NCBI RefSeq assembly: GCF_030908215.1
Contig: NZ_JAVFJK010000007.1
Location: 62,001-126,000 of the forward strand
DNA: 64,000 nt
Direction of reading: 5' to 3'
From: Sinomonas sp. ASV486
Lineage (GTDB): Bacteria; Actinomycetota; Actinomycetes; Actinomycetales; Micrococcaceae
Shown piece after piece: positions 1,886-17,208 of the stretch (position 1 is the stretch's first letter; every line of letters starts with the position of its first letter). Both the position numbers and the translations under genes were made by a program. Below the pieces are notes generated by a model. That model was not told where the DNA came from, did not search any database, and saw only the letters and a list, made by a program, of their open reading frames with translations.

Positions 1886-3112
1886 ATGGCGCATGAGCTC
1901 GGGAACCAGGGTGGGCAGGGCGTCCGGCAGGCGAACGTCCGGAAGGTGCTGGACGCACTGCGGCTGGAAGGCCCGTCCTCCCAGGCCTCCCTGGCGCGGA
2001 AGACCGCCCTGTCGCCGGCGACGGTGAACAACATCGTCAGGCGGCTGCGGGAAGACGGCCAGGCCGAGGTGAGGCCGGTGAACGGCAGGGAGTCCCTTGT
2101 GGCACTCGTGTCGACCCAGGGGGCCGTGGCCTCGATCCAGGTCAATGTCGGGTCCGTGCACGGCGCACTGTTCGACTTCGCCCGCGGCCTGCGGTTCGAG
2201 GGCCAGGTGGACCTGGAGGAGGGGACGGACCAGGAGGGCGGCAGCCCCGAGCTCGTCGCCGACCTCGTACGCTCCCTCGCCGCCGAGGCAGGGCTGGGGC
2301 TGGCCGATCTGGACGGGGTGGCAGTGGCCATGCAGGGCCCCATCAGCACGTCCTCGGGGACGGTGATGTCATGGGCACGGCGGCAGCTCCCGAAATGGGA
2401 GGGCGTCGCCATCGAAACCGTGCTCGAGAAGGAGCTCGGCGTCCCCGTGCTCGCGGAGAACGACGCGAACCTCGGCGCCCTGGCCGAATGGACCTGGGGA
2501 GCGGGGAAGGGGTCCTCGGAGTTCCTCTACGTGGCGTGCTCCGCGGGCATCGGCGGGGGCTTCGTCCTCGACGGCAACATCTACCGGGGCAGCGACGGGA
2601 TGGCCGGGGAGATCGGGCACATGGTGATCGAGCCCAACGGGCCCGTGTGCTTCTGCGGGAGCCGAGGATGCCTGAACACCTTCGCCTCGGAGCGCTCGGT
2701 GCTCCTGGCGCTTCGCGGCTACAGCGGCACGATGCGCTCGCTCGCCGAGGTCATCGACTCCGCCCGGCGCAAGGACCCTGCGTGCCAGCGCGTCCTCTTC
2801 GAGGCCGGGCGGTACCTCGGCCGCGCCCTGGCGAACACGGCCAAGGCGATGGCCCCCAGCGTGGTGGCCATCGGAGGCGAGCTGGCCAGCGCCGGCCCGC
2901 TGGTGTTCGACAGCATGAGGTCCTCGGTGGAGCTGAACAGCCTCATGGCAGCCTCGCCCTCCATCCGCTTCCGCCAGGCCCGGCTCGGGGACGACGCCAC
3001 CCTTCTCGGAGGGGTCGCGGCCGTGCACAAGAAGCTCGGCCAAGGGGCCAGCTCGCTTCCGGGATGGATGGTGAAGAAGGACACATTGGACAAGCCGGTG
3101 CGCAGTGCGTAG
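1886..3112 (+). CDS. ROK-family transcriptional regulator
   Basis: The protein has 408 residues. The start at 1886 has a perfect AGGAGG ribosome site seven bases upstream. An N-terminal winged helix (about residues 17-70) contains QASLARKTALSPATVNNIVRRL. It is followed by a ROK (repressor, ORF, kinase) domain. Visible are an actin-like GWxG-type segment around AEWTWGAGKGSSEF, the glycine-rich SAGIGGGFVLDG, and the zinc-binding CFCGSRGC near residue 253. ROK regulators of this architecture repress sugar catabolic operons and release DNA on binding a sugar or sugar phosphate. It is transcribed divergently from the FUSC remnant and immediately precedes the glycoside cluster, so it is the obvious candidate regulator for that cluster. 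The inducer is unknown. Confidence 0.92.
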   Translation: MAHELGNQGGQGVRQANVRKVLDALRLEGPSSQASLARKTALSPATVNNIVRRLREDGQAEVRPVNGRESLVALVSTQGAVASIQVNVGSVHGALFDFARGLRFEGQVDLEEGTDQEGGSPELVADLVRSLAAEAGLGLADLDGVAVAMQGPISTSSGTVMSWARRQLPKWEGVAIETVLEKELGVPVLAENDANLGALAEWTWGAGKGSSEFLYVACSAGIGGGFVLDGNIYRGSDGMAGEIGHMVIEPNGPVCFCGSRGCLNTFASERSVLLALRGYSGTMRSLAEVIDSARRKDPACQRVLFEAGRYLGRALANTAKAMAPSVVAIGGELASAGPLVFDSMRSSVELNSLMAASPSIRFRQARLGDDATLLGGVAAVHKKLGQGASSLPGWMVKKDTLDKPVRSA

Positions 3113-3237
3113 GCGTAACTATTCAAATATGGATGTATTCGAGCATGTGACCCTTGACGGATGATTTGATTTCCGTACGCTGAAGATCCCTGGACCGTTG
3201 ACCATTCACGGGCCGAATAGTTCAAGAAGGATCCTCA
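3113..3237 (+). promoter_or_regulatory. Promoter and candidate operator region of the glycoside cluster
   Basis: A plausible promoter is TTGACG (3154-3159), a 16-bp spacer and TACGCT (3176-3181). AACTATTC at 3117-3124 has its exact reverse complement GAATAGTT at 3215-3222, so the promoter is bracketed by an inverted pair about 90 bp apart. The nonamer ACCATTCAC (3201-3209) recurs at 11926-11934 upstream of the ABC importer genes. These are reasonable half-sites for the adjacent ROK regulator, but this is inference. Confidence 0.4.
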
Positions 3238-4554
3238 ATGATGAGTGTCAACTCTGTCGCCGACAACGACCCCTCGACGTCATCGTCCCTTCCCGACGAC
3301 GTCACCGTCCGCGGCCACAAGGGCGTGTTCGTGCGCCTGACCGCCATGATGCTGCTCGAGTTCGTGGTGTTCGGCTCGTGGTTCGCCACCCTCGGCCTCG
3401 TGCTCGCCACCAACAACCTGCCCGCCATCATCGGCACCGCGTACTCGCTGGCCGCCGTCGCCGCCATCGTCTCGCCGATGTTCCTGGGAGCGATCGGGGA
3501 CCGGTTCCTCTCCTCGCAGAAGGTCCTCGCGCTCGCGCACCTGGCCGGAGGGGTCGTCATGCTCTTCCTCCCCGCGGTCGTCAGCGCCGGCAACGGGTCC
3601 CTCGCGCTGGTCCTGATCTTCGTGTACATGCTCTTCTTCCAGCCCACCCTGGGTCTGGCCAACTCGATCGCCTTCCGGCACGTGGGCACGAACCAGCGCG
3701 CGTTCCCCTACATCCGCGTCTTCGGCACGATCGGCTGGGTCATCGCCGGACTCCTGGTGGGAGGCCTGGGCCTGTCCGCGTCCTCCGGCATCTTCTACGT
3801 CACCGCCGCGGCCAGCCTGCTGTTCGGCCTGTACTCCTTCACGCTGCCCCACACCCCGGCCCCCGCCAAGGGTGCGCGCTTCGCCCTCGGCGACGTCATC
3901 GGCGCCAAGGCGTTCAGGCTCTTCCGGCACCGGAACTTCGTCGTCCTGATGATCTGCGCCGTCCTGACCTCCATCTCGCTGGGCGTCTACAACACGTTCT
4001 CCTCCCCGTACCTGGGGGCCCTGGGAATCTCCAATGTCGCCGGCGTCCTGGCCATCGGCCAGGCTTCCGAGGTCGCGTTCATCATCACGATCCCCTGGGT
4101 CCTGTCCAAGGTGGGCATGAAGTGGGGGCTCTTCTTCGGCATGGTCCTCTGGGGCGTCCGCTTCGCGCTGTTCATCGCCGCGGCCGGGGACAGCCTGAGC
4201 TGGCTCGCCATCGTCGCCATCGCCATGCACGGAATCTGCAACGACTTCTTCCTGGTCCTCGCCGCCATGTACATCGACCGGGTCGCCCCCGTCGACCTCA
4301 CCGCCCAGGCGCAGAGCATGCTCATCCTCGTCATCTCCGGCATCGGCGCCTTCGTCGGCGCCACGGTATCCGGGACGATCTTCGGCGAGGTCGTCGCCCC
4401 CAATGCCGCCGCCGGGCCCGCGGCCTGGACGCCCATCTGGCTGGTCCCCATCGGCACCGCCATCCTCACCGCCTTCGTCTGGACCATCTTCTTCCGCTAC
4501 TCGCGCAATCACGAGATCGTCCGCATGGAGCCCTCCGCAGCCCAGGCAAAGTAA
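3238..4554 (+). CDS. MFS transporter, nucleoside:H+ symporter (NupG/XapB-like) type
   Basis: This integral membrane protein has 438 residues and about twelve hydrophobic helices. The start is one of two adjacent ATGs (3238, 3241) behind AAGGAT. The first helix region (LTAMMLLEFVVFGSWFATL) and the segment FPYIRVFGTIGWVIAGL are typical of the nucleoside:proton symporter branch of the MFS. Members of this branch are often found in bacterial sugar and glycoside clusters, where they probably carry the glycoside or its sugar product. It is the first gene of the plus-strand run and is followed 48 bp later by a GMC oxidase. The substrate cannot be assigned; a small sugar, keto-sugar or glycoside is likely from context. 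Confidence 0.85.
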   Translation: MMSVNSVADNDPSTSSSLPDDVTVRGHKGVFVRLTAMMLLEFVVFGSWFATLGLVLATNNLPAIIGTAYSLAAVAAIVSPMFLGAIGDRFLSSQKVLALAHLAGGVVMLFLPAVVSAGNGSLALVLIFVYMLFFQPTLGLANSIAFRHVGTNQRAFPYIRVFGTIGWVIAGLLVGGLGLSASSGIFYVTAAASLLFGLYSFTLPHTPAPAKGARFALGDVIGAKAFRLFRHRNFVVLMICAVLTSISLGVYNTFSSPYLGALGISNVAGVLAIGQASEVAFIITIPWVLSKVGMKWGLFFGMVLWGVRFALFIAAAGDSLSWLAIVAIAMHGICNDFFLVLAAMYIDRVAPVDLTAQAQSMLILVISGIGAFVGATVSGTIFGEVVAPNAAAGPAAWTPIWLVPIGTAILTAFVWTIFFRYSRNHEIVRMEPSAAQAK

Positions 4555-4602
4555 GGCCCCCACCCGTCGCAGCTGGGCTGCGCAGCAATGAGGAGAAGAC
4601 CC

Positions 4603-6150
4603 ATGAACGACAAGTACGACGTCGTCGTCGTCGGCAGCGGACCCGCGGGAGCGGCCTATGCCCGGGTGGTGAAGGACGCCAACCCCGCCGCGCGCATCCT
4701 GATGGTCGAATCGGGGCCCATCGTCTCGGAACCCCTCGGTACGCATGTGCGCACCATCAAGGACCCCCGGGAGCGCCTCGCGGCCCAGTTCGCCTCGCAG
4801 GGCCCCGAGGCGAACCCGTCAGACTACGACGAGCGGGTCGCTCGCGCCCTCTCGCCCTCCCGCGGCCGTTCCAGCGAGATCCTGGCCCGTCCGGGGACCT
4901 GGCTGCTCGGGGCCGGCCCTCTGTCCGAGGGCGAGGAGGGCTTCCCCGCCGCTGCCCTGTCGAGCAACGTCGGCGGGATGGGCGCGCACTGGTCTGGGGC
5001 GTGTCCGTGGCCTGCCCAGGGGGAGGTCAGCAAGGACCTCGACCCGGAGCAGTTCCGGTCGGGCCTGGACACTGCCCGTCGCCTCCTGCAGGTGAGCCAG
5101 CGCGCCTTCGAGGGGGCACCACTCGGCGGCGAGGTCAGGCGCCTGCTCGGAGCCCACTACGACACCGGCCGGCCCTCCGACCGAGTCGTCCAGGCGATGC
5201 CCCTGGGCATGGAAGTCCGGCCCAATGGAGAACGCTACTGGACCGGCCCGGGGGCCATGCTCGGCGACCTCCTGGGCCCAGATCCCGCCGCTGGCTTCGA
5301 GCTGCGTCCCGAGACCATCGCCAAGCGGATCCTGACCAAGGCCGGCCGAACCCAGGGAGTGCTCCTGCACGACCGGCGCGAGAACCGCGACTACGAGGTC
5401 GGTGCCCGCTTCGTCGTCGTGGCAGCCGACTCGCTCCGCTCCCCGCAGCTGCTCAGCGCCTCCGGCATCCGGCCCACCGCTCTGGGGCACTACCTCAATG
5501 AGCACACCATGACGACCAGCACGATCCAGCTCGGCCCAGCGCTGCGCTCCGCCACCGCCGGGCTCCGCAAGACCAGCGAAGGCGCCGTGGACTACCTCGC
5601 CGGTGTCAGCTGGGTCCCGTACTACGAGCCGACCTTCCCCTTCCACGGCCAGATCACCCAGTGGGACGCATCCCCGATCCCAGTCGACAAGAGCTTCGAG
5701 GCGTGGCCGGGCTCCGTCGTGGAGTGCTCCGTGTTCATGGGCAAGGCCGACGTCCGGTTCGAGGACTACGTCGAATTCGACGAGTCATCCCCGGACTTCT
5801 TCGGGATGCCCGCCATCAGGATCCACTACACCTTCACCGCGAACGACCGCGAGCGGCTCGCGCTGGCCGTCACCGAGGCCAAGCGCATGGGCTCGCTCCT
5901 GGGCGAGCCCATCAACGGCCTCGAGCCCACGGTGATGCCGCACGGCGCGTCACTCCACTACCAGGGGACGATGCGCCTCGGAGCCGATGACACGACCAGC
6001 GTCCTGGACACCTCCATGCGCGTCTGGGGCAACGACACCGTCTACGCCGGCGGCAACGGCACGATCGCCACCCCCGCCGCGTGTAACCCCACCCTGACCA
6101 ACGTTGCCCTCTCAGTGCTGGGTGCCCGCGACCTCGCCGGCCGGATCTGA
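4603..6150 (+). CDS. GMC-family FAD oxidoreductase, candidate glycoside 3-oxidase (CarA-like)
   Basis: The protein has 515 residues. The ATG at 4603 is preferred over 4588 because GAGGAG lies between them at the right distance. The FAD-binding Rossmann motif GSGPAGAAYA is at about residues 10-19. The C-terminal GMC domain has the expected catalytic pair, His452 (LHYQGTMRLG) and Asn495 (ACNPTLTN). The next two genes encode C-glycoside deglycosidase-like subunits. In known C-glycoside catabolism (CarA of Microbacterium, with CarB and CarC) a pyranose-oxidase-like GMC enzyme oxidises C3 of the glucose so the C-C bond can be broken by elimination. The order here matches that pathway. Alternatives are a general O-glycoside 3-dehydrogenase or a pyranose 2-oxidase; sequence alone does not decide. 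Confidence 0.82.
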   Translation: MNDKYDVVVVGSGPAGAAYARVVKDANPAARILMVESGPIVSEPLGTHVRTIKDPRERLAAQFASQGPEANPSDYDERVARALSPSRGRSSEILARPGTWLLGAGPLSEGEEGFPAAALSSNVGGMGAHWSGACPWPAQGEVSKDLDPEQFRSGLDTARRLLQVSQRAFEGAPLGGEVRRLLGAHYDTGRPSDRVVQAMPLGMEVRPNGERYWTGPGAMLGDLLGPDPAAGFELRPETIAKRILTKAGRTQGVLLHDRRENRDYEVGARFVVVAADSLRSPQLLSASGIRPTALGHYLNEHTMTTSTIQLGPALRSATAGLRKTSEGAVDYLAGVSWVPYYEPTFPFHGQITQWDASPIPVDKSFEAWPGSVVECSVFMGKADVRFEDYVEFDESSPDFFGMPAIRIHYTFTANDRERLALAVTEAKRMGSLLGEPINGLEPTVMPHGASLHYQGTMRLGADDTTSVLDTSMRVWGNDTVYAGGNGTIATPAACNPTLTNVALSVLGARDLAGRI

Positions 6151-6183
6151 GCCCCGGCAGCCAACTGCAATCGAAGGTGAGCC

Positions 6184-6651
6184 ATGTTCGACAACTTCCT
6201 GATCCGGCCCGACAGCCTCCGCAACGAGACCCGTGACGGGCACACGGTGGGCTTCACCCTCGCGGTGCGCCACGCCAACTACCGCGGTGTCTTCCTCTCC
6301 CTCCACAACGGCTACTTCATCGAAGTCGACGGCGTCGAGTACCCCACCGGCGCCCAGACCTTCGAGATCAACGGGCAGCGCCCGCGCACCTTCGAAGAAA
6401 CCCGCACGGCGGTGCACGAGCACTGGGACTACGACGACGAGGCCATCCTCCACGTCGCCGCCCCCGGCGGCCTCACACCGGGCGAGCACAGCATCCGCTT
6501 CCAGCAGTCGGTCCTGGCCGCCTACGGCTACCTGCCCACCGACGAGGAATGGGTCAAGAATCCGCCCACGCCGGGCACCGGCGCCGGCTCTGACAAGGCC
6601 CCCGACATCGTCACCTACACGCTCGCGCTCAACGACAAGGAAGAGAACTGA
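6184..6651 (+). CDS. C-glycoside deglycosidase beta-subunit-like protein (DUF6379)
   Basis: The protein has 155 residues and no signal peptide or membrane helix. The opening MFDNFLIRPDSLRN, followed by a beta-rich body (YRGVFLSLHNGYFIEVDG) and GGLTPGEHSIRF, is characteristic of the small beta subunit of C-glycoside deglycosidases (CarB type, DUF6379). In that family it forms a heteromer with a TIM-barrel alpha subunit and helps to form the active site. The stop codon overlaps the start of the alpha-like gene by one base (TGATG), which supports coupled translation and fixed subunit ratio. The C-terminal tail after about residue 120 (EEWVKNPPTPGTG and beyond) seems longer than in members I can recall. 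Family membership is fairly secure; substrate is inferred. Confidence 0.82.
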   Translation: MFDNFLIRPDSLRNETRDGHTVGFTLAVRHANYRGVFLSLHNGYFIEVDGVEYPTGAQTFEINGQRPRTFEETRTAVHEHWDYDDEAILHVAAPGGLTPGEHSIRFQQSVLAAYGYLPTDEEWVKNPPTPGTGAGSDKAPDIVTYTLALNDKEEN

Positions 6652-7775
6652 TGGCCATCAAGCGCGGAGTCTCCCTCTACAGCTACCAGCAGTCCCAGTT
6701 CTTCAAGGAACTCGACCTCGAAGCCCAGATCCGCGAGGTCGGCCAGAACCTCCACGGAGCCGAGGGCATCGAGATCATCGACGAGATGTCCCTGCGCTAC
6801 CCGGACCCCGGCGAAGACTTCACGCGCAGATGGTTCGAGTGGATGGACGCCTACGGCACCACGCCGGTCGCCATGGACGTGGGCATGGACGTGCTGCAGT
6901 TCCGGGACCACGTCATGACGATCGAGGAGTGCGCGGACCGGCTCCGCCACGACATCACGCTCGCCAAGTCCCTCGGCTTCCCCAACGTCCGCGTCCTGTC
7001 CGTCGTCCCGGTCGAGGTCCTGACCTCGGCGCTGCCCTACGCCGAGGAGCTCGACATCAGGCTGGGGAAGGAGGTCCACCAGCCGATGCCCCTGGAGGGC
7101 CAGCAGGTCACCGAGATCCTCGATGTCATCGAGCGCACCGGAACCCGCCACCTCGGCATCGTCCCGGACCTCGGCATCTTCCAGTTCCGGCCCTCCGAAG
7201 TCCTCCTCGCCTCGCTCGAGCGGCGGGGGGCCAAGAAGGCCGCATCCGATGCCTCGGTCGAGCTGGCCATCCGCCTCCAGCGCGGCGAGGCTCCCTTCGG
7301 GCACATCGACATGTCCTTCCACACCGCCGGAAACCTCCGCGCCGACTTCAACAGGTTCCTGAAGTCCGGAGCATGCGACGACACCTTCGTGGAGGCCTTC
7401 ACGGGCGTTAAGGAGTACACGGAGGAGCACGTCGAGGACCCCCAGGACGTCGACTACCGGGCGGCGTCCGAAGCCCTCATGCTCTCGCACACCTCCGGCG
7501 ACACCCTCCGCGAACTCGCCCCGCACGTGGTCCACGTCCACGGGAAGTTCAACAACATGTCACCGGTCCCGGACCGGCCGGGCGAGTTCCTGGAGATCTC
7601 CATCGACTATGCAACAGCCATCCGCGCCCTCAAGGAGGGCGGCTTCGACGGGTACATCAACTCCGAATACGAAGGCCAGCGGTACTTCCAGGACCGCGGC
7701 CGCGAGGACATGATGGACGAGGTGGACCAGGTGCGCCGGCACCAGGAGATGCTGCGGAGGCTCCTGTCAGCATGA
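6651..7775 (+). CDS. C-glycoside deglycosidase alpha-subunit-like TIM-barrel lyase
   Basis: The protein has 374 residues and the fold of sugar-phosphate isomerase/epimerases (xylose-isomerase-like TIM barrel). Likely divalent metal ligands can be seen in order: Glu in GIEIIDEM, Asp in GIVPDLGIFQF, His in VVHVHGKFNN and Glu in YINSEYEG. In the CarC/DgpB-type enzymes this subunit, with the beta subunit, uses a metal to enolise a 3-keto-glycoside and expel the aglycone by elimination. It overlaps the beta gene by one base and the next gene by four (ATGA), so all are translated together. The family as a whole also contains O-glycoside 3-keto lyases and hydratases, so the bond broken (C-C or C-O) is an open question. 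Confidence 0.78.
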   Translation: MAIKRGVSLYSYQQSQFFKELDLEAQIREVGQNLHGAEGIEIIDEMSLRYPDPGEDFTRRWFEWMDAYGTTPVAMDVGMDVLQFRDHVMTIEECADRLRHDITLAKSLGFPNVRVLSVVPVEVLTSALPYAEELDIRLGKEVHQPMPLEGQQVTEILDVIERTGTRHLGIVPDLGIFQFRPSEVLLASLERRGAKKAASDASVELAIRLQRGEAPFGHIDMSFHTAGNLRADFNRFLKSGACDDTFVEAFTGVKEYTEEHVEDPQDVDYRAASEALMLSHTSGDTLRELAPHVVHVHGKFNNMSPVPDRPGEFLEISIDYATAIRALKEGGFDGYINSEYEGQRYFQDRGREDMMDEVDQVRRHQEMLRRLLSA

Positions 7776-8992
7776 ACGCCCACCCTGCTCCCGACGGAAC
7801 CGCGCACACAGTGCCCCGGCTCATCGCCTACGTGGGCTCGTACGCGACCCAGACCCCCGGCTCCGGCGGCATCTTCGCCCTCGGAGTCAGCAGCGACGGC
7901 ACCGCCCTGGCCCATCTGGGCCGGTCCCCGGAACCGCAGCAGGCAGGCTACCTCGCCTACGCCCCGACCACCGGCACCCTCTACGCCGTCGACGAGCGCA
8001 AGAACGACGGCAGGGGACCGGTCGAGCCGCCGGCAGCAGTCCACGCCTACTCCGTCGGCCCGCACGACGCGAAGCTCTCATGGCTGAACACCCTGCCGGC
8101 CCCCGGCCCGCGTCCGACGTTCCTCTCCGTCGACGAGGAGAAGAAGCTCCTCGTCACGGCGAACCACGGGGACTTCGACCACGTCGAGCGGGTCGTGCGC
8201 ACCGACGACGGGGGCTGGACCGTCGAGTACGTCTACGACGACTCGACCGTCCTTCTCTACGCCCTGCAGCCAGACGGCGCACTCGCGAAGCTCCTCGACG
8301 TGAAGGTCATGGACGGCCACGGCCAGGACCCCAACTCCTCCCCACAGGCCGGCGGACACGGCCAGTCCGGCGCCCACGCCCACTCGGCCGTGATCGACCC
8401 CTCAGGCCAGTACGTCCTCGTGGGGGACAAGGGCACCGACCAGATCCGCGTCTATGCCCTCGGCACGGCGCTCGAGCCCGTGTCCGAGTACCAGTTCCCG
8501 CCCGAGACCGGGCCCCGCCACATCGCCTTCGACCCACAGACCGGCAACGCCTTGGTCACGTGCGAGTTCGCCTCCGACCTCGCCTCCCTCAGCTTCGACC
8601 GGAACAGCGGAAAGCTGCGCCTCCTCGACCAGGTCCCCGCCGTCGGGCAGGCGCACGAGGGGCTGAACGAGCCTGCCGAGGTCCGCGTGCACCCGAACGG
8701 CCGCTTCGCGTACGTGAACAACCGGGGCGAGGACTCCCTGGCGTGGTTCAGCATCACCGAGGGAGGCCGGCTGGAACGGCGCGGCCACGTGCCGCTGGCT
8801 CCCTCCGTCCACCCGGGCCTGGCGGCGCGAAGCTTCGCCTTCGCCCCAGGCGGCGCCTTCATCCTCCTGGCCGACAGGCCCGCCAACACCGTCCGCTCCT
8901 ATGCAGTCGACCCCGAGACCGGCGCGCTGGCCGAGCTGGCCGAGACCGCGGTCCCCGAAGCCGCATACATCGAGTTCGTGGAGCTCCCATGA
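7772..8992 (+). CDS. Lactonase-family seven-bladed beta-propeller protein
   Basis: The 406-residue protein belongs to the Pgl-type lactonase family (PF10282). Repeated blades are visible, with conserved segments such as IAYVGSYATQTPGSGGI, GPRPTFLSVDEEKK, ETGPRHIAFDPQTGN and RVHPNGRFAYVNNRGEDS. The founding member hydrolyses 6-phosphogluconolactone, but many relatives sit in sugar oxidation clusters and open other sugar lactones or have unknown roles. No signal peptide is apparent, so it is probably cytoplasmic. It overlaps its neighbours on both sides by ATGA. Within this pathway it could hydrolyse a lactone formed by side oxidation of the sugar; this is inference from position. Confidence 0.85.
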   Translation: MNAHPAPDGTAHTVPRLIAYVGSYATQTPGSGGIFALGVSSDGTALAHLGRSPEPQQAGYLAYAPTTGTLYAVDERKNDGRGPVEPPAAVHAYSVGPHDAKLSWLNTLPAPGPRPTFLSVDEEKKLLVTANHGDFDHVERVVRTDDGGWTVEYVYDDSTVLLYALQPDGALAKLLDVKVMDGHGQDPNSSPQAGGHGQSGAHAHSAVIDPSGQYVLVGDKGTDQIRVYALGTALEPVSEYQFPPETGPRHIAFDPQTGNALVTCEFASDLASLSFDRNSGKLRLLDQVPAVGQAHEGLNEPAEVRVHPNGRFAYVNNRGEDSLAWFSITEGGRLERRGHVPLAPSVHPGLAARSFAFAPGGAFILLADRPANTVRSYAVDPETGALAELAETAVPEAAYIEFVELP

Positions 8993-10146
8993 CAACCACC
9001 AGTACCCACCCCTTCCCGGCAGAACAAGGACGAGGCACGACCGGGCGGACAGGACCACGCATCGCGATCCTGGGCACCGGCATGATCGGCGCCGTCCACC
9101 GCCGGGCTGCCCTGCTGGCCGGCGCGGAGCTGGTCGGGGCCATGGCCTCGACCCCCGACCGCTCCGCCGAGGCCGCAGCCCAGTGGGGGACCGAACCCCT
9201 CAGCCGGCCCGAGGACCTCCAGCGCCTCCGGCCCGACGTCGTCCATGTCTGCAGCCCCAACGGACTCCATGCCGAGCACGTCGAAGCCGCGCTGGAGGCC
9301 GGGGCACACGTCATCTGCGAGAAGCCGCTCTCCGTGGACAGTGCACAGGCGATCCGCCTCGCCCGGCTCGCCTCGGAGCACGGGAAGGTCGCCACCGTCC
9401 CCTTCGTCTACCGGTTCCACCCACTCGTCCGCGAGATCAGGGCACGCGCGGCACAAGGCGAATTCGGCCCCTGGCAGATCCTCCACGGCAGCTACCTCCA
9501 GGATTGGCTGCTCTCACCCGCATCGACCAGCTGGCGCGTCGGAGCGTCCACCGGGGGTCCTTCCAGGGCCTTCGCGGACATCGGCTCCCACTGGTGCGAC
9601 CTGATGGAATTCGTCACCGGAGAGCGGATCTCCTCGGTCCTTGCCGAGATGACCACCACCGTGCCAGAGCGGCCCTCGCCTGGCCGCTCCGATGAGCCGC
9701 CGGTGCCGGTCGACACCGAGGATGCGGCAGCGGTCGTCTTCAGGACCGATTCCGGGGTCCTCGGACAGGTCACGGTCTCCCAGGTCTCTGCCGGCAGGAA
9801 GAACCGCCTGTGGTTCGAATTCGACGGCGCGCACAAGTCGGCCGTCTTCGACCAGGAGAATCCCGAGACCGTATGGCTCGGCTCCGAGGAACGCGCCGAG
9901 GTCGTCCCGAGGGACCCGGCCCGCGGATCCGCAGAACAGCGCCGCCTCTCGGTCCTGCCCGCAGGCCACCCGCAGGGCTACGCCCAATGTTTCGAGAACT
10001 TCATCGCCGACACCTACGCAGTCGTCGGCGGAGAGGAGCGCCAAGGACTGCCCACCTTCGCAGACGGGGTGCGATCCGCCTGCATCGTCGACGCCGTGAT
10101 CGAGTCCGCGCGCACCAGGACATGGACAGAGGTATCTCCCGTCTGA
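8989..10146 (+). CDS. Gfo/Idh/MocA-family NAD(P)-dependent oxidoreductase
   Basis: The protein has 385 residues. Its ATG at 8989 overlaps the previous stop. An unusual 20-residue polar leader precedes the Rossmann motif AILGTGMIGAVHRRAA. The family-typical ICEKPLSVD gives the Lys-Pro pair, and the C-terminal alpha/beta domain carries the catalytic-region histidine in FADIGSHWCDL. The family interconverts sugars, inositols and keto-sugars. In the 3-keto glycoside pathway a Gfo/Idh/MocA enzyme reduces 3-keto-glucose back to glucose, or acts as the oxidising partner. Here it is probably the reductase that closes the pathway, since oxidation is provided by the flavoprotein. This assignment is inferred. 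Confidence 0.88.
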   Translation: MTTTSTHPFPAEQGRGTTGRTGPRIAILGTGMIGAVHRRAALLAGAELVGAMASTPDRSAEAAAQWGTEPLSRPEDLQRLRPDVVHVCSPNGLHAEHVEAALEAGAHVICEKPLSVDSAQAIRLARLASEHGKVATVPFVYRFHPLVREIRARAAQGEFGPWQILHGSYLQDWLLSPASTSWRVGASTGGPSRAFADIGSHWCDLMEFVTGERISSVLAEMTTTVPERPSPGRSDEPPVPVDTEDAAAVVFRTDSGVLGQVTVSQVSAGRKNRLWFEFDGAHKSAVFDQENPETVWLGSEERAEVVPRDPARGSAEQRRLSVLPAGHPQGYAQCFENFIADTYAVVGGEERQGLPTFADGVRSACIVDAVIESARTRTWTEVSPV

Positions 10147-10175
10147 ACGGGGAGCGGACTTGAGGAAAGGGCGCC

Positions 10176-10385
10176 ATGGAAAATCTCCGCCACGCTGATC
10201 AGAACTGGCAGGACCTCCGCGGCAAGCGGGTCGAGGTCCATGCCCACGGCAGGATCGTGGACCGCGGCCTCGTAGAAGCAGCCACCGATGACGGTTCCAT
10301 CCTCTGGCTCGCAGCCGAGGGCATCACCCCGCGCCGGATCATCGAACGCGCCGCGATCTCGGCCATCGTGATCATCCCCGCATAG
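10176..10385 (+). CDS. Small conserved-looking protein A (69 aa), function unknown
   Basis: The start at 10176 follows an AGGAAAGG ribosome site. The 69-residue product has no signal peptide, cysteines or membrane helix. Its alternating hydrophobic pattern (GKRVEVHAHGRIVDRGLV, then SILWLAAEG) suggests a small beta barrel of SH3 or PRC type. It aligns by eye with the 67-residue product at 11439-11642: NW/DW near the start, a G-K/R pair, HGR/LGR, RGL/SGL, a DDGS/DNGT turn followed by LW, and a hydrophobic C-terminus. The two copies bracket the second TIM-barrel gene. I do not recognise a named family. A role as accessory subunit or regulator of the sugar enzymes is a guess from position. Confidence 0.7.
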   Translation: MENLRHADQNWQDLRGKRVEVHAHGRIVDRGLVEAATDDGSILWLAAEGITPRRIIERAAISAIVIIPA

Positions 10386-10413
10386 AACCGACCCGGAAGG
10401 AAGGACTTCCCCG

Positions 10414-11418
10414 ATGCCCCGCCCGTTCACCCTGTTCACCGGCCAGTGGGCCGACCTCAAGTTCGAGGAGGTCGCCGAGCTCGCGGCCGGCTGGGGCTAC
10501 GACGGCCTCGAGATCGCCGTCTCCGGCGAGCACCTCGACGCCGCCCGCTGGGACGATCCCGCCTACATCGCCGAGCGCCTCGCCATCCTCGACAGACACG
10601 GCCTGAAGCTCTACGCGATCTCCAACCACCTCAAGGGCCAGGCCGTCTGCGACGACCCGATCGACTTCCGCCACCAGGGGATCGTCGGCTCCGCCGTGTG
10701 GGGCGACGGCGACCCCGAGGGCGTGCGCACCCGCGCCGCCGAGGAGCTCAAGGACACAGCGCGCCTGGCCAGGGCCCTCGGGGTCAAGACCGTCGTCGGG
10801 TTCACCGGCTCGGGCATCTGGCAGTACGTGGCCATGTTCCCGCCCGTCCCCGCCTCCGTCATCGACGCCGGCTACCAGGACTTCGCCGACCGCTGGAACC
10901 CCATCCTGGACGTCTTCGACGAATGCGGGGTCCGGTTCGCCCACGAGGTCCACCCCTCCGAGATCGCCTACGACTACTGGTCCACGAAGCGCGCGCTCGA
11001 GGCCATCGGACACCGGGCCGCGTTCGGCCTGAACTGGGACCCCTCCCACATGATGTGGCAGGGACTGGACCCGGTCGCGTTCATCACCGACTTCGCCGAG
11101 AGGATCTACCACGTGGACTGCAAGGACACCCGCATGCGCATGGGCAACGGCCGCGCCGGCATCCTCTCCTCCCACCTGCCCTGGGGCGACCCCCACCGCG
11201 GCTGGGACTTCGTCTCCGCCGGGCGCGGCGACGTCCCCTGGGAGGACTGCTTCCGTGCCCTGACCGCCATCGGCTACGACGGGCCCATCTCCGTCGAGTG
11301 GGAGGACGCCGGCATGGACCGCCTCGTCGGCGCCCCCGAAGCCCTCGCCGCCCTGAAGAAGTTCGACTTCGCCCCCGCCACCGCCTCCTTCGACGCCGCC
11401 TTCACCAACCAAGGCTGA
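10414..11418 (+). CDS. Sugar phosphate isomerase/epimerase-type TIM-barrel enzyme
   Basis: The protein has 334 residues and a good AAGGAAGG ribosome site. Metal-site candidates are clear: Glu in AHEVHPSEIAYDYW, Asp and His in NWDPSHMMWQG, His and Asp in YHVDCKDTRM, and Glu in ISVEWEDAG. This is the AP-endonuclease-2/xylose-isomerase-like family commonly found with Gfo/Idh/MocA oxidoreductases. Known relatives act as isomerases, epimerases, dehydratases or as 3-keto-glycoside lyases or hydratases. It is not closely similar to the deglycosidase-like alpha subunit at 6651, so the two probably do different steps. One consistent reading is that this one hydrates the 2-hydroxy-3-keto-glucal released by the lyase, giving 3-keto-glucose. 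That is inference. Confidence 0.85.
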   Translation: MPRPFTLFTGQWADLKFEEVAELAAGWGYDGLEIAVSGEHLDAARWDDPAYIAERLAILDRHGLKLYAISNHLKGQAVCDDPIDFRHQGIVGSAVWGDGDPEGVRTRAAEELKDTARLARALGVKTVVGFTGSGIWQYVAMFPPVPASVIDAGYQDFADRWNPILDVFDECGVRFAHEVHPSEIAYDYWSTKRALEAIGHRAAFGLNWDPSHMMWQGLDPVAFITDFAERIYHVDCKDTRMRMGNGRAGILSSHLPWGDPHRGWDFVSAGRGDVPWEDCFRALTAIGYDGPISVEWEDAGMDRLVGAPEALAALKKFDFAPATASFDAAFTNQG

Positions 11419-11438
11419 CCACGGATACCGCACCGGAG

Positions 11439-11642
11439 ATGATGACCAAGAGCAACGACTGGGCTGCCGCCACGGGCCGACAGGCCGAGATCCGACTCGG
11501 CAGGAGCGTGATCTGCTCCGGGCTCGCGGGAGCGGTCAACGACAACGGCACCCGCCTCTGGATCCAGCCCTATTCCGGCCAGCGCCGCGCATTCAGCAAG
11601 GCGGACGGCTACGAGGTCTGGATCGCAGTGCGCCCCTTCTGA
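11439..11642 (+). CDS. Small protein B (67 aa), apparent paralogue of the protein at 10176
   Basis: The start is ATG 11439 or, with better ribosome-site spacing from CCGGAG, ATG 11442. The product is short and basic with aromatic residues (RLWIQPYSGQRRAF, EVWIAVRPF). It shares with small protein A the order D/NW, GR, GL, acidic-N-G turn and LW, and similar length. It lies 20 bp after the second TIM-barrel gene and is the last gene of the run. The region is short, so similarity could be partly chance; a profile alignment would settle it. Function unknown. Confidence 0.6.
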   Translation: MMTKSNDWAAATGRQAEIRLGRSVICSGLAGAVNDNGTRLWIQPYSGQRRAFSKADGYEVWIAVRPF

Positions 11643-12092
11643 GCCACCAGGCTTCCACAGCGCGCTGAAGGACCGACTGCAGCCGGGTCCCGGATGCACA
11701 GCTGGGCGTCGACTGTCGCCCGAGCCGGATCAATCACGTCGGGCGATGGACTCGGACGCCCGCTGCGGCCGGTGCGTCAGGGGCCTGTCTGAGAACCCCT
11801 ATGCTGCGCAGCCAGGCCGAGGAGTCCGACGACCAGCTCCGGCCGGTGCCCCACATGATCGCCGCGACCACGGGCATCTGCGCTGGCCGCCACAGCCACA
11901 GGCGGCTCAGGGGCCTGCGATGTAAACCATTCACAATTGATGATGTTTGAGTAGTTTTTGGAACAAATCATTGCCAATTTTGCTGACTTGACCTTAGCTT
12001 GAAGGACAGTGCACGCCGTGACGGCGATCTCAGCACCTCCCAAACAGCAGACTTTCGTCGGGGCAGAGCCGCCCCCAGGAGGCATGAAGAAG
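11643..12092 (+). promoter_or_regulatory. Intergenic region with candidate promoter of the ABC importer
   Basis: About 450 bp without a convincing gene. The last 150 bp are strikingly AT-rich for this genome. ACCATTCAC at 11926-11934 repeats a nonamer found before the MFS gene. A possible promoter is TTGCCA (11971-11976), a 17-bp spacer and TTAGCT (11994-11999). The shared nonamer suggests common control of both operons by the ROK protein. The ribosome site AGGAGG is at 12077-12082. Confidence 0.35.
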
Positions 12093-13367
12093 ATGTCCAT
12101 GATCCGAGGACGCCGCCGTATGATCGCGGCCCTTGTAGCTACCGCAGCTTGTCTGGCCCCGGGATTGGCGGCCTGCAGTGGCGGGAACGCGACTGGCGCG
12201 AGCAGCGACGGCCCGAGCGGGACCATCAAATTCCTGGGCCACACGGGCATCCAGGCCTCGATGGATCCGGTCATCAAATCGTTCGAGGCCGCGTACCCGA
12301 ATATTCACGTCCAGACCCAGTACGCGCCCTCGGGGCCGACCTACACCCAGACGGTGGTCACGCAGATCCAAGGGGGCAACGCCCCGGATGTCTTCTACAG
12401 CAACGGCGGCACCGGGTCGTCCTTCTCGATCAGCCCCCTGGCGAAGTCGGGGAAGATCCTCGACCTGTCGGACCAGTCGTGGGCATCCACCATTCCCTCG
12501 GACGCGACCGACATGTACAAGATCGACGGGAAGACGTACGGGCTGAACCTGGACGAGTCGCCCTCGGGCATCCTCTACAACGTCGGCACGTTCTCCAAGA
12601 TGGGCCTCCGGGCCCCCAAGACCTTCTCGGATGTGCTCCAGGTCTGCTCGACGGCGCGTTCGCAGGGCAGGTACGGCATCGCACTCCCAGGCCAGAACGC
12701 CGGGTTCGCGGCCGAGATCGTCGCCGGCAGCATCGTGTACAGTTCCACACCCGACTGGGATGCCCAGCGGAACGCGGGCAAGACCACCTTCGCCGGAACG
12801 GCAGGGTGGCAGCAGACGCTGAGCCGGTTCCAGCAGATGCAGAATGCCGAGTGCTTCCAGCCGGGGGCAGCCTCAGCGAGCTCGCCCCAGGCCATCCAGG
12901 CGATGACCACAGGCCAGGCCTTGATGACCATCGTCCCGTCGGGAACCATCGGCTCGGTGGCCAACGGCAAGCCCAACGACTGGGCGATGGCCCCGTTCCC
13001 CGGTGACTCCGAGTCCCAGACCCGCGCCACCATCGGCTACCAGGATGCCCTCGCCGTCTCCTCCACCACCAAGAACAAGGCTGCTGCCCTCGCATTCCTG
13101 AACTACCTCGCAGGCCCGGCTGCCTCCACCTACGCCAACGCAAGCGGCACCGTGTCCCTCGCCGACGCGAAGTCCGGCACGCTTTCCCAGCCCCTCCAGG
13201 GCGTCAAGCCGTACTTCGACAACAAGACGACGATCTCACGGCCCGCCGACCGCTGGCCCGGCGGCGGAGCGCTGAACACCCTGAGCACGGCCGTCGTCTC
13301 CTCAATGACAGGACAGAGCAGCATCGACGACGCCCTCAAGAGCGTCGACCAGGCGTGGGGCAAGTAG
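12093..13367 (+). CDS. ABC sugar transporter, extracellular solute-binding lipoprotein
   Basis: The protein has about 424 residues and belongs to the family 1 sugar-binding proteins. A basic start, a hydrophobic stretch and the lipobox LAAC, followed by SGGN, mark a lipoprotein signal. AGGAGG at 12077-12082 is too close to the ATG at 12084, so the ATG at 12093 (spacing 10) is preferred. The mature part starts GTIKFLGHTG and contains the usual PAYT-like binding-fold segments (FEAAYPNIHVQ, GNAPDVFYSNGG). It is anchored outside the membrane and delivers a sugar or glycoside to the two permeases that follow directly. No ATPase gene is present, so a shared MsiK-type ATPase encoded elsewhere probably drives import, as is common in actinobacteria. 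Confidence 0.9.
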   Translation: MSMIRGRRRMIAALVATAACLAPGLAACSGGNATGASSDGPSGTIKFLGHTGIQASMDPVIKSFEAAYPNIHVQTQYAPSGPTYTQTVVTQIQGGNAPDVFYSNGGTGSSFSISPLAKSGKILDLSDQSWASTIPSDATDMYKIDGKTYGLNLDESPSGILYNVGTFSKMGLRAPKTFSDVLQVCSTARSQGRYGIALPGQNAGFAAEIVAGSIVYSSTPDWDAQRNAGKTTFAGTAGWQQTLSRFQQMQNAECFQPGAASASSPQAIQAMTTGQALMTIVPSGTIGSVANGKPNDWAMAPFPGDSESQTRATIGYQDALAVSSTTKNKAAALAFLNYLAGPAASTYANASGTVSLADAKSGTLSQPLQGVKPYFDNKTTISRPADRWPGGGALNTLSTAVVSSMTGQSSIDDALKSVDQAWGK

Positions 13368-13368
13368 G

Positions 13369-14388
13369 ATGCGCGAGCAGCGGACCCAAGCTGTCGCCCC
13401 TCGGGGGGCGGGTGCGTCCGAACCCCCCTCGGCCGCACCGGTAATGGGGCAGGCGCCGGTCGCGGGCTACCCGCCGGCGTCGAGGCTGAGAGCACCGAAG
13501 GCCAGTTCCGGGCGAGCCTCCAGACGCCTTGCGATGTCCTTCCTGTGGGCAGTCCCGGGTGTCGCGATCGCCGTGGGGGTCCACCTGGTAGCCGTCGGGG
13601 CAGGTGCGGTCTATGCCTTCACCGACTGGAACGGAACCAGCGCAGGTGCGAACTGGATCGGAATCGACAACTTCCGCGAGATCTTCAGCAGCCCCGACGC
13701 CAGGGACGCCCTCATCACCACGATCGAGTTGTCGGTCGCGGCGGTCATCCTGTCGAACGTCATCGGGATTGCCCTCGCGCTCGGGCTGCACCGCACCCTG
13801 CGCTCGCGCAACGTGCTCCGCGCAGTGTTCTTCGCACCGTTCGTCCTGAGCCCGCTCGCCGTCTCCTATATCTGGCAGTTCATCTTCGACGCTCAAGGGC
13901 CCTTGAACAAGGTGCTCGGCGACGTGGGACTGGGCACGGTGGCGCAGCCGTGGCTCGCCAGCCCAACGTGGGCGAGATGGACCATCCTGGTCGTCCTCAT
14001 CTGGCAGTACTCGGGCCTCGCCATGGCCTTCTACCTCGCCGGGCTTCAGAGCATCCCGGAGGAGGTCGAAGAGGCCGCCGCCGTCGACGGCGCCTCGACG
14101 GTCCGCAGGCTGCGGACGATCACCCTGCCGCTTCTCGCCCCCGCGATCACGGCCAGCGTCAGCATCACGACGGTCTTCAGCCTGAGGGTCTTCGACCAGG
14201 TCCTCGCCCTCACCGGCGGCGGCCCCGGGTCGGCGTCCGAGACGCTCGCGACCCAGGTCTACAAGCAGACCTTCGTCTCCGGACGATTCGGCTACGGCGC
14301 CGCACTCGCGCTCGTCCTTACTGCGCTCGTCGCCATCGTCTCAGTCCTGCAGATCGTGATCCTGCGGGCCGGCGAGAGGAAGATCTGA
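13369..14388 (+). CDS. ABC sugar transporter permease (MalF/LacF type)
   Basis: The ATG at 13369 lies one base after the previous stop. The 339-residue protein has a long polar leader (about 55 residues) and six hydrophobic helices. The EAA loop that contacts the ATPase reads PEEVEEAAAVDGAS followed by a hydrophobic stretch. LTGGGPGSASETLATQVYKQ near the end is typical of MalF-type sugar permeases. It forms a heterodimer with the next gene product and works with the binding lipoprotein. Start choice is uncertain because the leader is weakly conserved in such proteins. Confidence 0.92.
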   Translation: MREQRTQAVAPRGAGASEPPSAAPVMGQAPVAGYPPASRLRAPKASSGRASRRLAMSFLWAVPGVAIAVGVHLVAVGAGAVYAFTDWNGTSAGANWIGIDNFREIFSSPDARDALITTIELSVAAVILSNVIGIALALGLHRTLRSRNVLRAVFFAPFVLSPLAVSYIWQFIFDAQGPLNKVLGDVGLGTVAQPWLASPTWARWTILVVLIWQYSGLAMAFYLAGLQSIPEEVEEAAAVDGASTVRRLRTITLPLLAPAITASVSITTVFSLRVFDQVLALTGGGPGSASETLATQVYKQTFVSGRFGYGAALALVLTALVAIVSVLQIVILRAGERKI

Positions 14389-14390
14389 CC

Positions 14391-15221
14391 TTGTTCAAGT
14401 ACAGCTACCGCACGTTCGGCCGGGAACTCGTGTTCCTCCTCGCCGCCGCCGCATGGGCAGTGCCCTTCGTCATCCTGGTCATGATCGCCCTGAAGCCCGG
14501 GGACGAAATGCTCACGGACCCGACTTCCCTCCCTCAGCAGCTGGACTTCAGCAGCTTCCCACAGGCCTGGGAGGGCAGCAGCGGGGTGAGTCTGGGCGCA
14601 GCCCTCCTGAACAGCACCGTCATCACGGTCGGCAGTGTCATCGCCCTCGTGGCGATCGGCTCGATCTGCGCCTACGTCGTCGTCCGGCGGGAGGGCCGGA
14701 TGGGCAAGGGCATATACGGCCTCTTCGTCGCGGGCATCATCCTCCCATTCCAGCTGGGCATCGTCCCGGCCTACGCAGTCCTGCGAGAGCTCGGCCTCGC
14801 AGGAACCTACCCGGGGATGATCCTGCTGTACACGGGGCTCCTGATGCCCCTCACCGTATTCCTGTACACCGGCTTCGTCCGCACCCTGCCCAAGGACTAC
14901 GAGGAGGCGTCCTACGTCGACGGCGCTTCGCGCATCCAGACCTTCATAAGGATCGTCTTCCCCCTCCTGCGGCCGATCACGGCAACTGTTGCAGTCCTCA
15001 CCGGTGTGATGGTCTGGAACGACTTCTTCGTCCAGCTCATCTTCCTCTCCGGGAGCCCGCTCCAGACCCTGCCTGTCGCGGTCTACTCGTTCGTCGGCGA
15101 GTACGTCTCCCAATGGAACGTCATCTTCGCCGCGGTCGTGATAGCCATCCTGCCCGTCCTGGCCTTCTACCTGATCGCACAGAAACAGCTGATCCAGGGT
15201 TTCACAGGAGGAATCAAGTAG
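14391..15221 (+). CDS. ABC sugar transporter permease (MalG/LacG type)
   Basis: The reading frame continues directly from the upstream permease with only two bases between. No ATG or GTG is available near the expected N-terminus, so the TTG at 14391 is taken as the start, giving 276 residues. Six helices are visible, and the EAA loop reads PKDYEEASYVDGAS. The C-terminus FTGGIK matches the usual end of MalG-like permeases (QGLTAGAVKG type). Translation is presumably coupled to the preceding gene. The transported compound is likely the glycoside or oligosaccharide processed by the upstream enzymes. Confidence 0.9.
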   Translation: MFKYSYRTFGRELVFLLAAAAWAVPFVILVMIALKPGDEMLTDPTSLPQQLDFSSFPQAWEGSSGVSLGAALLNSTVITVGSVIALVAIGSICAYVVVRREGRMGKGIYGLFVAGIILPFQLGIVPAYAVLRELGLAGTYPGMILLYTGLLMPLTVFLYTGFVRTLPKDYEEASYVDGASRIQTFIRIVFPLLRPITATVAVLTGVMVWNDFFVQLIFLSGSPLQTLPVAVYSFVGEYVSQWNVIFAAVVIAILPVLAFYLIAQKQLIQGFTGGIK

Positions 15222-15510
15222 CGCTTCCCGCTGCCCACACTTTCCCGGCGCCACAGGAGGAGTTCCCCGCACGCAGGCTGGGGGGGGGACTCCTACGCCC
15301 CCCGCGGAGCCCTCCATGAGCCGACGGAAGAGCCCCTTCTCCCAAGGCCCACTGCGATGACCTGGGTCTGCTCCCGGCAGTCGGGCCGGTCGAACCCCAA
15401 CCTCAGACAATTCAAAAACGAATGATCAACTTCCCAGTTTGATGTTGCCGGAGTCCATCGTCTCCGGCTGCGGGCGGCACAGGGAGTGGTCAAGGACCTT
15501 GGAGCAAGAA
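15222..15510 (+). promoter_or_regulatory. Intergenic region before the second GMC gene
   Basis: No gene is apparent. ATTC-N6-GAAT at 15410-15423 is a perfect short inverted repeat resembling the ATTC boxes before the MFS gene (3121-3124 and 3137-3140). It sits in a locally AT-rich stretch 88 bp before the start at 15511, a reasonable operator position. A nine-G run at about 15281 is unusual. No clear minus 10 or minus 35 was found. Confidence 0.3.
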
Positions 15511-17208
15511 ATGACGGATTCAAAGAGCAAGCGCTATGACGCGCTTGTGGTCGGGTCGGGTGCTGCCGGAAGCATCGCGGTGAAGGAACTGACCGAGCGT
15601 GGCCTCGAGGTTCTCCTTCTGGAGGCCGGGCGTGACATCACCGAGGAAGATTTCACCCCGGCGCCTCCTACCGCGCCGGCGGCGATGAGTATCAGTCTGG
15701 GCGCTCGGATCAGGTCGACCCTGAAGGGTCAGCCCATTCAGTCGCGGCGGGCAATGTTCCAAGAGCAGAAGAACCGCTTCCTGGTCAATGACCTCCAGCA
15801 CCCGTACTCGAGCCGCGGGGGCGACTTCCTGTGGATCCGCGGGCAGATCCTCGGCGGCCGCCTGCATTCCTACGGCCGGGTGCTGCTGCGGGCCTCCGAC
15901 CACGAGTTCAAGGCCGCCAGCATGGGCATCAAGGACGGCCAGGACTGGCCGATCTCCTATGCGGACCTAGAGCCGTACTACGACCGGCTCGAGGAGTTCC
16001 TCGGGCTGTACGGCACAGCTGACGGCATCCCGAATCTCCCTGACGGCAAGTACCGCGGCCCCTCGCTCCTCACGGAGGCAGAGAAGCACTTCAAGAGCAC
16101 GGTCGAGGGCAAATGGGGCAACCGCCACGTGATCCCATGGCGCTACGCCGCCCCGAACCTGCACCGCGTGCCGCTTGGCATCGTCGCGGCCCGTGAGACC
16201 GGACGGCTCACGACACGAACGGATGCCATCGTGCGGAAGGTGACGATCGATCCAAAGACGGGCCTGGCAGACGGGGCTGTGTTCGTTGACCGGCGCACCA
16301 AGGAAGAGCATCGCGTCCATGCTGACGTGGTCGTGCTGTGCGCCTCCACGATCGAGTCCATCCGGCTGCTGCTGAACTCAGCGACCGACGGCCATCCCGA
16401 CGGGCTGGGCAACTCCTCCGGGTTGCTGGGCAAGTACTTCATGGATCAGACGCCGAGCCTGCTGTTCGGCGACGACCCGAGCCATCCCGGATTCGACCGG
16501 ATCGATCCCGCCCCGGCCGATCCGTACTACCCACCGGTCGGAGGCATCTACATCCCTCAGTTCGAAAACGTTGAGGGCGTCACGAATTCGGACTTCGCGC
16601 ACGGATGGGCCATGCAGGGCACGGTCGGACGCCTGCCCGTCCCTGAAGGACACCCAGGTACTGTCGGCCTCATGGGCTTTGGGGAGATCCCCCCGTACAA
16701 AGAGAATCAGGTCACCCTCCACCCGAGACGGAAGGATGCGTGGAACATCCCCATCCCCCGGATCCGCCTCGGCATCACCGACAACGAGCGCGCCCTCATG
16801 CGCGCCCAAGTGGCCGGGCTCAAGGAGATGGCCCTAGCGAGCGGATACACCATCAACTTCGCCGGCTCCTCCCTGGGACTGGACTCTAAGGAGGTGTGGC
16901 CGAATGCGGATCCGATCAGCCGTGCCCTGTTCGTCTCCTTCTTCACGAAGAGCCTGGCCATGGGCGCCGCGATCCACGAGTGCGGCGGCGCCCGCATGGG
17001 AGAGGACCCCAGGACATCGGTGCTCAACGGACGAAACCAGAGCTGGGACGTGCCCAACCTCTTCGTCACCGACGGAAGTGCCTACGTCACCAACGGCGCC
17101 GTCGGCCCGACGCTGACGATCATGGCCATGACGGCCCGGGCATGCGAATACATCGCCGAGGAGCATGCCTCGGGGAACCTGCACAAGAAGGAGTCCTCTC
17201 GACCCTGA
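15511..17208 (+). CDS. GMC-family FAD oxidoreductase (second copy in the locus)
   Basis: The protein has 565 residues. The ATG at 15511 is preceded by GGAG with a six-base gap; the longer frame from 15439 has no support. The FAD motif GSGAAGSIAVKEL lies near the N-terminus. The middle contains a gluconate/sorbitol-dehydrogenase-like segment (WPISYADLEPYYDRLEEFLG), and the C-terminal domain has HECGGARMG with His489. Most relatives have Asn in an NPxLT motif as the second catalytic residue. Here the segment reads AVGPTLTIMA, with Gly at that place (about residue 532). No signal peptide or cytochrome subunit is seen, so an oxidase or a partnered dehydrogenase are both possible. It probably oxidises a sugar hydroxyl, complementing the first GMC enzyme for another substrate. 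Confidence 0.83.
   Translation: MTDSKSKRYDALVVGSGAAGSIAVKELTERGLEVLLLEAGRDITEEDFTPAPPTAPAAMSISLGARIRSTLKGQPIQSRRAMFQEQKNRFLVNDLQHPYSSRGGDFLWIRGQILGGRLHSYGRVLLRASDHEFKAASMGIKDGQDWPISYADLEPYYDRLEEFLGLYGTADGIPNLPDGKYRGPSLLTEAEKHFKSTVEGKWGNRHVIPWRYAAPNLHRVPLGIVAARETGRLTTRTDAIVRKVTIDPKTGLADGAVFVDRRTKEEHRVHADVVVLCASTIESIRLLLNSATDGHPDGLGNSSGLLGKYFMDQTPSLLFGDDPSHPGFDRIDPAPADPYYPPVGGIYIPQFENVEGVTNSDFAHGWAMQGTVGRLPVPEGHPGTVGLMGFGEIPPYKENQVTLHPRRKDAWNIPIPRIRLGITDNERALMRAQVAGLKEMALASGYTINFAGSSLGLDSKEVWPNADPISRALFVSFFTKSLAMGAAIHECGGARMGEDPRTSVLNGRNQSWDVPNLFVTDGSAYVTNGAVGPTLTIMAMTARACEYIAEEHASGNLHKKESSRP

Follow-up and report, generated by a model that had tools for sequence, protein, structure and literature searches.

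The sequence of oxidation, elimination, hydration and reduction in glycoside cleavage has already been published (in parts of PMC10628242 and PMC13273386), and so has the pairing of an oxidase with a C-glycoside deglycosidase (CGD) in soil actinobacteria (in parts of PMC10646112 and PMC12724307). Here we describe a CGD cassette of Sinomonas sp. ASV486 (host genome 4.28 Mb; 69% GC). The whole stretch analysed, called the window, comprises the 64,000 bases 62001–126000 of contig NZ_JAVFJK010000007.1 (C17), and the cassette lies at 1886–17208 on the + strand; all feature coordinates are window positions unless a contig or locus is named. We consider it probable that this cassette serves the non-hydrolytic catabolism of an aryl C-glucoside that carries a lactone; bergenin, or a compound close to it, is the likeliest one.

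In soil actinobacteria the systems CarA/CarB/CarC, PsG3Ox and PurA/PurBC, built of a flavin adenine dinucleotide (FAD) oxidase and a CGD, resemble the window in that a GMC flavo-oxidase is followed by an alpha/beta CGD, and the first GMC enzyme of the window (GMC1) belongs to their oxidase family. They differ in that the window alpha belongs to another clade and the usual flavoenzyme of window-type cassettes is a second GMC enzyme, GMC2. DgpA/B/C (PuCGE) and DfgA-E of gut bacteria share with the window the alpha/beta lyase family, the metal site, the catalytic His/Glu and the beta tyrosine; the first oxidation there is performed by a MocA-type enzyme, whereas GMC enzymes are the candidates in the window. 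The Agrobacterium tumefaciens operon (GlycDH, AtOGE, AtHYD, Gfo) follows the same oxidation, elimination, hydration and reduction (described in part of PMC10628242), and AtHYD resembles the putative hydratase of the window, but AtOGE, the eliminase, has no sequence relationship to the CGDs and is O-specific, and no CGD beta subunit is present. The C-glucosyl deglycosidase of Deinococcus aerius (8qvc, 8umc), for which no paper was found in the open-access literature, lies on a different branch of the alpha tree. None of the main texts searched for the word "lactonase", five in all and PMC10646112, PMC8563793 and PMC12724307 among them, contained it.

The CGD genes of the window encode a beta subunit (6184–6651, +), which matched Pfam CGDB (PF19906) with 115.7 bits at a cut-off of 27.6, and alongside it a Mn-site alpha subunit belonging to the CGD TIM-barrel family (6651–7775, +). 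By comparison with positions given in parts of PMC8563793 and PMC10628242, alpha kept the Glu/Asp/His/Lys/Glu metal ligands (E141, D173, H297, K299, E339), the base His (H143) and the supporting Glu (E341). Tyr33 of beta, the counterpart of Tyr39 of PuCGE, was kept in all 31 alignment rows. A scan of genome contigs with alpha yielded 20 loci. In a tree of 42 alphas, whose PDB-derived rows are partial sequences, the window and 14 loci (L034–L047) formed one clade with support 97/97. Hosts of the 14 were Nocardia, Amycolatopsis, Streptomyces, Actinomycetospora, Subtercola, sphingomonads, a proteobacterial metagenome-assembled genome and Vibrio. Three plasmid alphas were placed by identity only, outside the tree: those of Novosphingobium resinovorum (64%), Pantoea piersonii (62%) and Niallia (56%). 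The clade spans Actinomycetota and Pseudomonadota, by identity also a Bacillota plasmid, and no characterised member was found in it. Sequence, tree and predicted fold all identify alpha as a CGD. The first-pass annotation, which had proposed such a lyase, had named placement of the TIM barrel and its partner outside all lyase clades as evidence against it; this did not occur, alpha grouping inside the CGD family. The alpha/beta pair is a candidate for elimination of the aglycone from a 3-keto-C-glucoside. The same annotation had named growth with flavone C-glucosides as a check, and for these as the specific substrate we found no support: the flavone-acting AgCGD2 stood elsewhere in the tree, like the Deinococcus enzyme, and EuCGD, which also acts on flavones, and 8qrz were long branches joining outside the window clade and its sister.

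The sister of the window clade consisted of five loci, L048–L052, from Lachnospiraceae and similar gut/rumen-type genomes (support 98/97). ABC (ATP-binding cassette) permeases were present there; no GMC enzyme or cassette lactonase was found at these loci, nor any lactonase family in the ten neighbours scanned. Several residues that differ from most other CGDs, among them K140, H87, Q343 and N301 of alpha and H41 and H80 of beta, were considered as clade-specific carboxylate-binding candidates; K140, H87, Q343, H41 and H80 were rejected, being common to the sister clade too. The metal-ligand His (window H297) was Gln in the control alphas L062–L065 and L069 and in 8qrz; CGDs with this change may form a subgroup whose metal site is different. 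In some genomes of the family (G003, G230, G251, G314, G368 and others) CGDB was present in 4–5 copies, for the most part clustered within some tens of kb, and these genes often sat in long open frames of 430–560 codons. The window clade is rare: among 394 sampled class genomes, only the window's own gave an alpha match at E 1e-30. The host has a single CGDB copy, and of 15 genomes of its genus two carry CGDB, the host being one of them.

The lactonase gene (7772–8992, +; Pfam Lactonase, PF10282, 234.5 bits, cut-off 21.7) overlaps alpha by 4 bases. Against NCBIfam 6-phosphogluconolactonase models the protein scored far under the cut-offs (87 vs 500; 79.5 vs 370). It had been assigned no role in the first-pass annotation, though it marks the cassette. 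We judged it from alignment and co-occurrence, comparing 18 clade loci with 20 controls. The clade set comprised the 14 chromosomal loci, the window extended leftwards by 20 kb, and three plasmid loci of 29 kb; L053, cut by a contig end, and the sister loci L048–L052 were left out. Controls were 19.5 kb stretches around CGDs of other clades, drawn from 17 of the 26 other CGDB genomes of the same family (L080 and L081 are neighbours within one genome). The lactonase was present in 17 of 18 clade loci vs 0 of 20 controls (Fisher P 6e-10; for this and the later Fisher test, loci are not independent and stretch lengths are unequal). All 14 chromosomal relatives carried it at 45–67% identity. The 393 other class genomes gave no relative at E 1e-50, in a scan that scored at most a few candidates per genome. 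Among plasmids, 124 records had any match; two cassette plasmids matched at 54–58% over nearly the full length, and the other full-length matches, among those listed, did not exceed 33%.

What the lactonase acts on is the point at which a broader reading has to be considered. It could belong to a general C-glycoside cassette (flavone, xanthone, anthraquinone) and act on a sugar lactone formed when MocA or GMC oxidises C1 of 3-keto-glucose or glucose. Its Pfam family is that of the 6-phosphogluconolactonases, its solved relatives include the periplasmic gluconolactonase 6igb, the relatives of MocA include an L-glucose dehydrogenase (5ya8), and the lactonase and MocA genes overlap by 4 bases. 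At least four controls (L074, L075, L077, L080) had MocA- and HYD-like genes (HYD being the second TIM barrel of the cassette) without a lactonase, which argues that the lactonase serves the substrate and not the sugar route. The glucokinase gene contained in the Pantoea cassette fits glucose as the product, and the aglycone genes of the clade, given below, are specific for methoxylated or gallate-type rings. We regard the sugar-side reading as unlikely.

The remaining steps of the pathway have candidates in the same run of genes. GMC1 (4603 or 4588–6150, +) is a pyranose oxidase/glycoside 3-oxidase-like flavoenzyme that matched 7dve at E 1e-119 and PsG3Ox (7qf8) at E 9e-119. By sequence it falls in the actinobacterial POx/CGOx group and, aligned to these two, it keeps the C-terminal His and Asn motifs, whose His and Asn we take to be catalytic; it is a candidate for oxidation of the glycoside at C3, as had been supposed. 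A homologue of GMC1 was found in only one of the 14 relatives (L036, 77% identity), while GMC1-type enzymes 38–46% identical to it occurred in 19 of 20 control stretches. GMC2 (15511–17208, +; Pfam GMC_oxred_C, 80 bits), with glucose and fructose dehydrogenases as best solved matches, had homologues in 11 of the 14 (51–81%) and is for this reason the usual flavoenzyme of the clade cassettes; the window carries both. HYD (10414–11418, +) matched 2zds at E 1e-158 and AtHYD (8ro4) at E 5e-36 over residues 17–315, the whole barrel, in agreement with the earlier assignment as a hydratase, so that it is a candidate 2-hydroxy-3-keto-glucal hydratase. The Gfo/Idh/MocA oxidoreductase (8989–10146, +) is a candidate 3-keto-glucose reductase; homology allows the reductase role assigned to it before, and the role itself stays a prediction. 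All four steps claimed earlier thus have homology-based candidates, and every reaction is a predicted one.

Genes expected to act on the aglycone lie nearby. In the host a block on the − strand (C17:55986–61710) encodes a major facilitator superfamily (MFS) protein, a catechol 2,3-dioxygenase-like (C23O-like) protein, PurU, an MTHFR-like protein and a LigM/DesA-like demethylase; the demethylase, MTHFR, PurU and dioxygenase genes are 0.3–4.5 kb left of the window. PurU scored 364 bits (cut-off 286), and PurU and MTHFR would fit a tetrahydrofolate-dependent demethylase. The dioxygenase is 60% identical to the Amycolatopsis enzyme. Three kinds of gene were counted as aglycone-type: those for LigM- or VanA-type aryl O-demethylases, those for gallate dioxygenases, and those for extradiol dioxygenases sharing 60% identity or more with the Amycolatopsis one. 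Such a gene was found in 13 of 18 clade loci vs 0 of 20 controls (Fisher P 2e-6). The demethylase type varied by lineage, LigM-like or VanA-like: N. resinovorum pSA2 carried VanB with a Rieske oxygenase and, by annotation, 4-oxalomesaconate tautomerase about 14 kb from alpha, and other loci carried either LigM/DesA-like demethylases, in some cases accompanied by MTHFR, or Rieske oxygenases of the VanA_C type together with reductases. Gallate dioxygenases of the sphingomonad loci scored 688, 731 and 749 bits at a cut-off of 412. LigB-type dioxygenases were also seen elsewhere in the host genome (C12:228146 and C3:80659), and one such enzyme is 42% identical to the gallate dioxygenase of Sphingobium.

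A number of observations weigh against the bergenin assignment. The definition of aglycone-type genes was picked after the loci had been seen, and since the query proteins came from the window, L038, L042 and L045, those loci match by construction. Five of the 18 loci have no aglycone gene (L036, with an MTHFR-like gene only, L039, L041, L044 and L101), and distant extradiol matches (29–32%) occurred in 5 of 20 controls. The host demethylase is under the curated cut-offs (DesA 586 vs 800, LigM 514 vs 580), and the C23O-like dioxygenase is slightly under its own (310 vs 320). VanA_C was not found in the host genome. The methoxy position of bergenin differs from that of known LigM/DesA substrates. 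As for the lactonase, it lies about 6.5 kb from alpha in L041 (45% identity), and the locus that lacks it, on the Niallia plasmid, has an amidohydrolase in its place. In Streptomyces sp. NBC_01450 a truncated lactonase (last 140 residues only, 66%) stands as an orphan remnant, no further gene of the cassette lying closer than 10 kb. Finally, three further LigM/DesA-like demethylases lie within 8 kb of each other in the host genome (C1:550504–558508), so the single one near the cassette could be there by coincidence.

This last point leads to the view that the cassette is as first described and that the aromatic genes are nearby by chance, in catabolic islands rich in genes. The four LigM-like demethylases of the host, the generally high number of aromatic genes in sphingomonads and the five loci without such genes would all be compatible with it. 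It does not account for an association that recurs in Actinomycetota, sphingomonads and Pantoea with differing demethylase types and is absent from all controls, and we hold it to be very improbable. A substrate of another kind, methoxylated benzoic acids (vanillate, syringate, gallate derivatives) bound to glucose as O-glucosides or esters, with the CGD as a dual O/C-eliminase, would agree with the resemblance of the demethylases to those for vanillate and syringate, and with PuCGE, which also cleaves 3-keto-O-glucosides (part of PMC10628242). According to the same part of that paper, C-glycosides require the beta subunit with its conserved tyrosine, and a plain O-glucoside leaves the conserved lactonase unexplained; we consider such substrates improbable.

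A lactonised C-glucoside such as bergenin would account for the lactonase as well. The signals call for a C-glucoside that combines a lactone with a gallate-like ring and a methoxy group, and bergenin, which is 4-O-methylgallic acid 2-C-glucoside in lactone form (part of PMC11053098), is the compound to which they lead. A lactone-opening step would be needed because elimination alone would leave aglycone and sugar joined by the ester. Bergenin is oxidised by the gut enzyme D3dgpA (part of PMC11239390), and the strain carrying D3dgpA does not convert it, as stated in part of PMC10772555; this failure would fit a need for something beyond an oxidoreductase and a standard CGD. The lactonase, C3-oxidase candidate, CGD, candidate hydratase and MocA, together with aglycone genes, were all found at the locus.

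From gene content and order, catalytic residues, phylogeny and co-occurrence, all observed directly, we infer the substrate and each reaction of the following route, including the order of its second and third steps. The substrate would be imported by the MFS and/or ABC transporter. The lactonase would open the delta-lactone between aglycone carboxyl and sugar to give 4-O-methylgallate 2-C-glucoside, and GMC1 and/or GMC2 would then oxidise C3 of the glucose. The Mn-dependent CGD alpha/beta would eliminate 4-O-methylgallate with formation of 2-hydroxy-3-keto-glucal, which HYD would hydrate to 3-keto-glucose and MocA would reduce to glucose. Degradation of the methoxylated aglycone would fall to the left block (demethylase, MTHFR, PurU, extradiol dioxygenase) along with further genes of the host.

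The gene set was compared across the 14 chromosomal relatives at E 1e-8. The beta subunit was present in all of them, the MFS importer in 12 (an edge fragment in L034, which passed only a looser cut-off, was not counted), a ROK homologue (45–64% identical) in 10, MocA at 46% identity or more in 12, and HYD at 70% or more in 11, the remaining three having 26–31%. Gene order differed: MocA and HYD were elsewhere in the locus in L036 and L039, and so was the lactonase in L041, where an ABC trio like that of the window adjoins the cassette. On the Niallia plasmid (L101, 13518–19712), which holds the Bacillota version, two MocA genes and an Amidohydro_2 protein replace GMC and lactonase; the Amidohydro_2 protein might serve as the lactone opener, or its target might be the aglycone. 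Judged by sequence, the cassette is not a chance grouping, because most of its proteins far exceed their family cut-offs and a similar gene set recurs in other phyla.

In the window itself, the genes listed by the first-pass annotation (GMC oxidase, CGD beta and alpha, lactonase, MocA, second TIM barrel) were all present on the + strand in one run with the short overlaps it described (1 base for beta/alpha, 4 for alpha/lactonase and 4 for lactonase/MocA). Its gene order held; its end at 11642 did not, since the second TIM barrel stops at 11418 and 11642 ends a separate 67-aa open reading frame (ORF). The unit is also larger than the 3238–11642 noted, with ROK on the left, the ABC importer and GMC2 on the right, and the demethylation block beyond the left window edge; GMC2 and the aglycone genes were outside its coordinates. 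The ROK-family transcriptional regulator (1886–3112, +; Pfam ROK 184.5 bits) is followed by the MFS importer of the nucleoside:H+ symporter family (3238–4554, +; Pfam Nuc_H_symport 300.7 bits). This and the ABC importer (about 12084–15221, +; Pfam SBP_bac_1, BPD_transp_1) are the two importers expected from the earlier description. The latter has a binding protein (uncertain start at 12009–12120, end at 13367) and permeases at 13369–14388 and about 14391–15221. Left of ROK, a GntR/FCD regulator cut by the window edge (1–570, −; Pfam GntR 60 bits, FCD 63 bits) has a counterpart at the N. resinovorum locus. A 69-aa ORF between MocA and HYD (10176–10385, +), possibly outside the pathway, and the 67-aa ORF (11439–11642, +) are 28% alike over 36 aa; neither had a Pfam match or a convincing counterpart in the relatives' cassettes. 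A longer ORF at 10446–11642, in a frame different from that of HYD, had no Pfam match at E 0.001. Promoter and terminator scans yielded no more than in shuffled sequence. Tandem glycine riboswitch aptamers were seen at 48871–49066 (65.3 and 35.9 bits).

Signs of mobility were found around the cassette. CGDB was not found in the same-species genome G011. In a comparison with this one genome that covered 20 kb of left flank and the window from 12001, the left flank and 12001–21339 gave paralog-like or short matches only; matches of 83–87% start at 21340, and from 21577 the two genomes are again syntenic at 96%. The block is bordered by an ISL3 transposase (17709–19040) and a resolvase (L082:13101–13853), and the cassette is partly plasmid-borne, in N. 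resinovorum, P. piersonii and Niallia. On balance we lean towards a mobile bergenin cassette, common to Actinomycetota and Pseudomonadota, in which a dedicated lactone opener has been added to the four-step route from oxidation to reduction, aryl demethylation and ring cleavage of the gallate type are coupled to that route, and GMC1 and GMC2 are exchangeable as C3-oxidising flavoenzymes.

No description of bergenin catabolic genes was found in the open-access literature, most subscription journals being outside the search. Bacterial cleavage of the C-glucosyl bond of bergenin was reportedly described by Hattori in 1989. If our reading is true, the cassette names genes for bacterial bergenin breakdown and assigns a role to a lactonase subfamily. 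It would also define a lyase clade for gallate-type C-glucosides, with a possible synthetic use through the reverse reaction shown for PuCGE (part of PMC13273386), and would show a path by which a drug-relevant plant C-glycoside returns to the carbon cycle.

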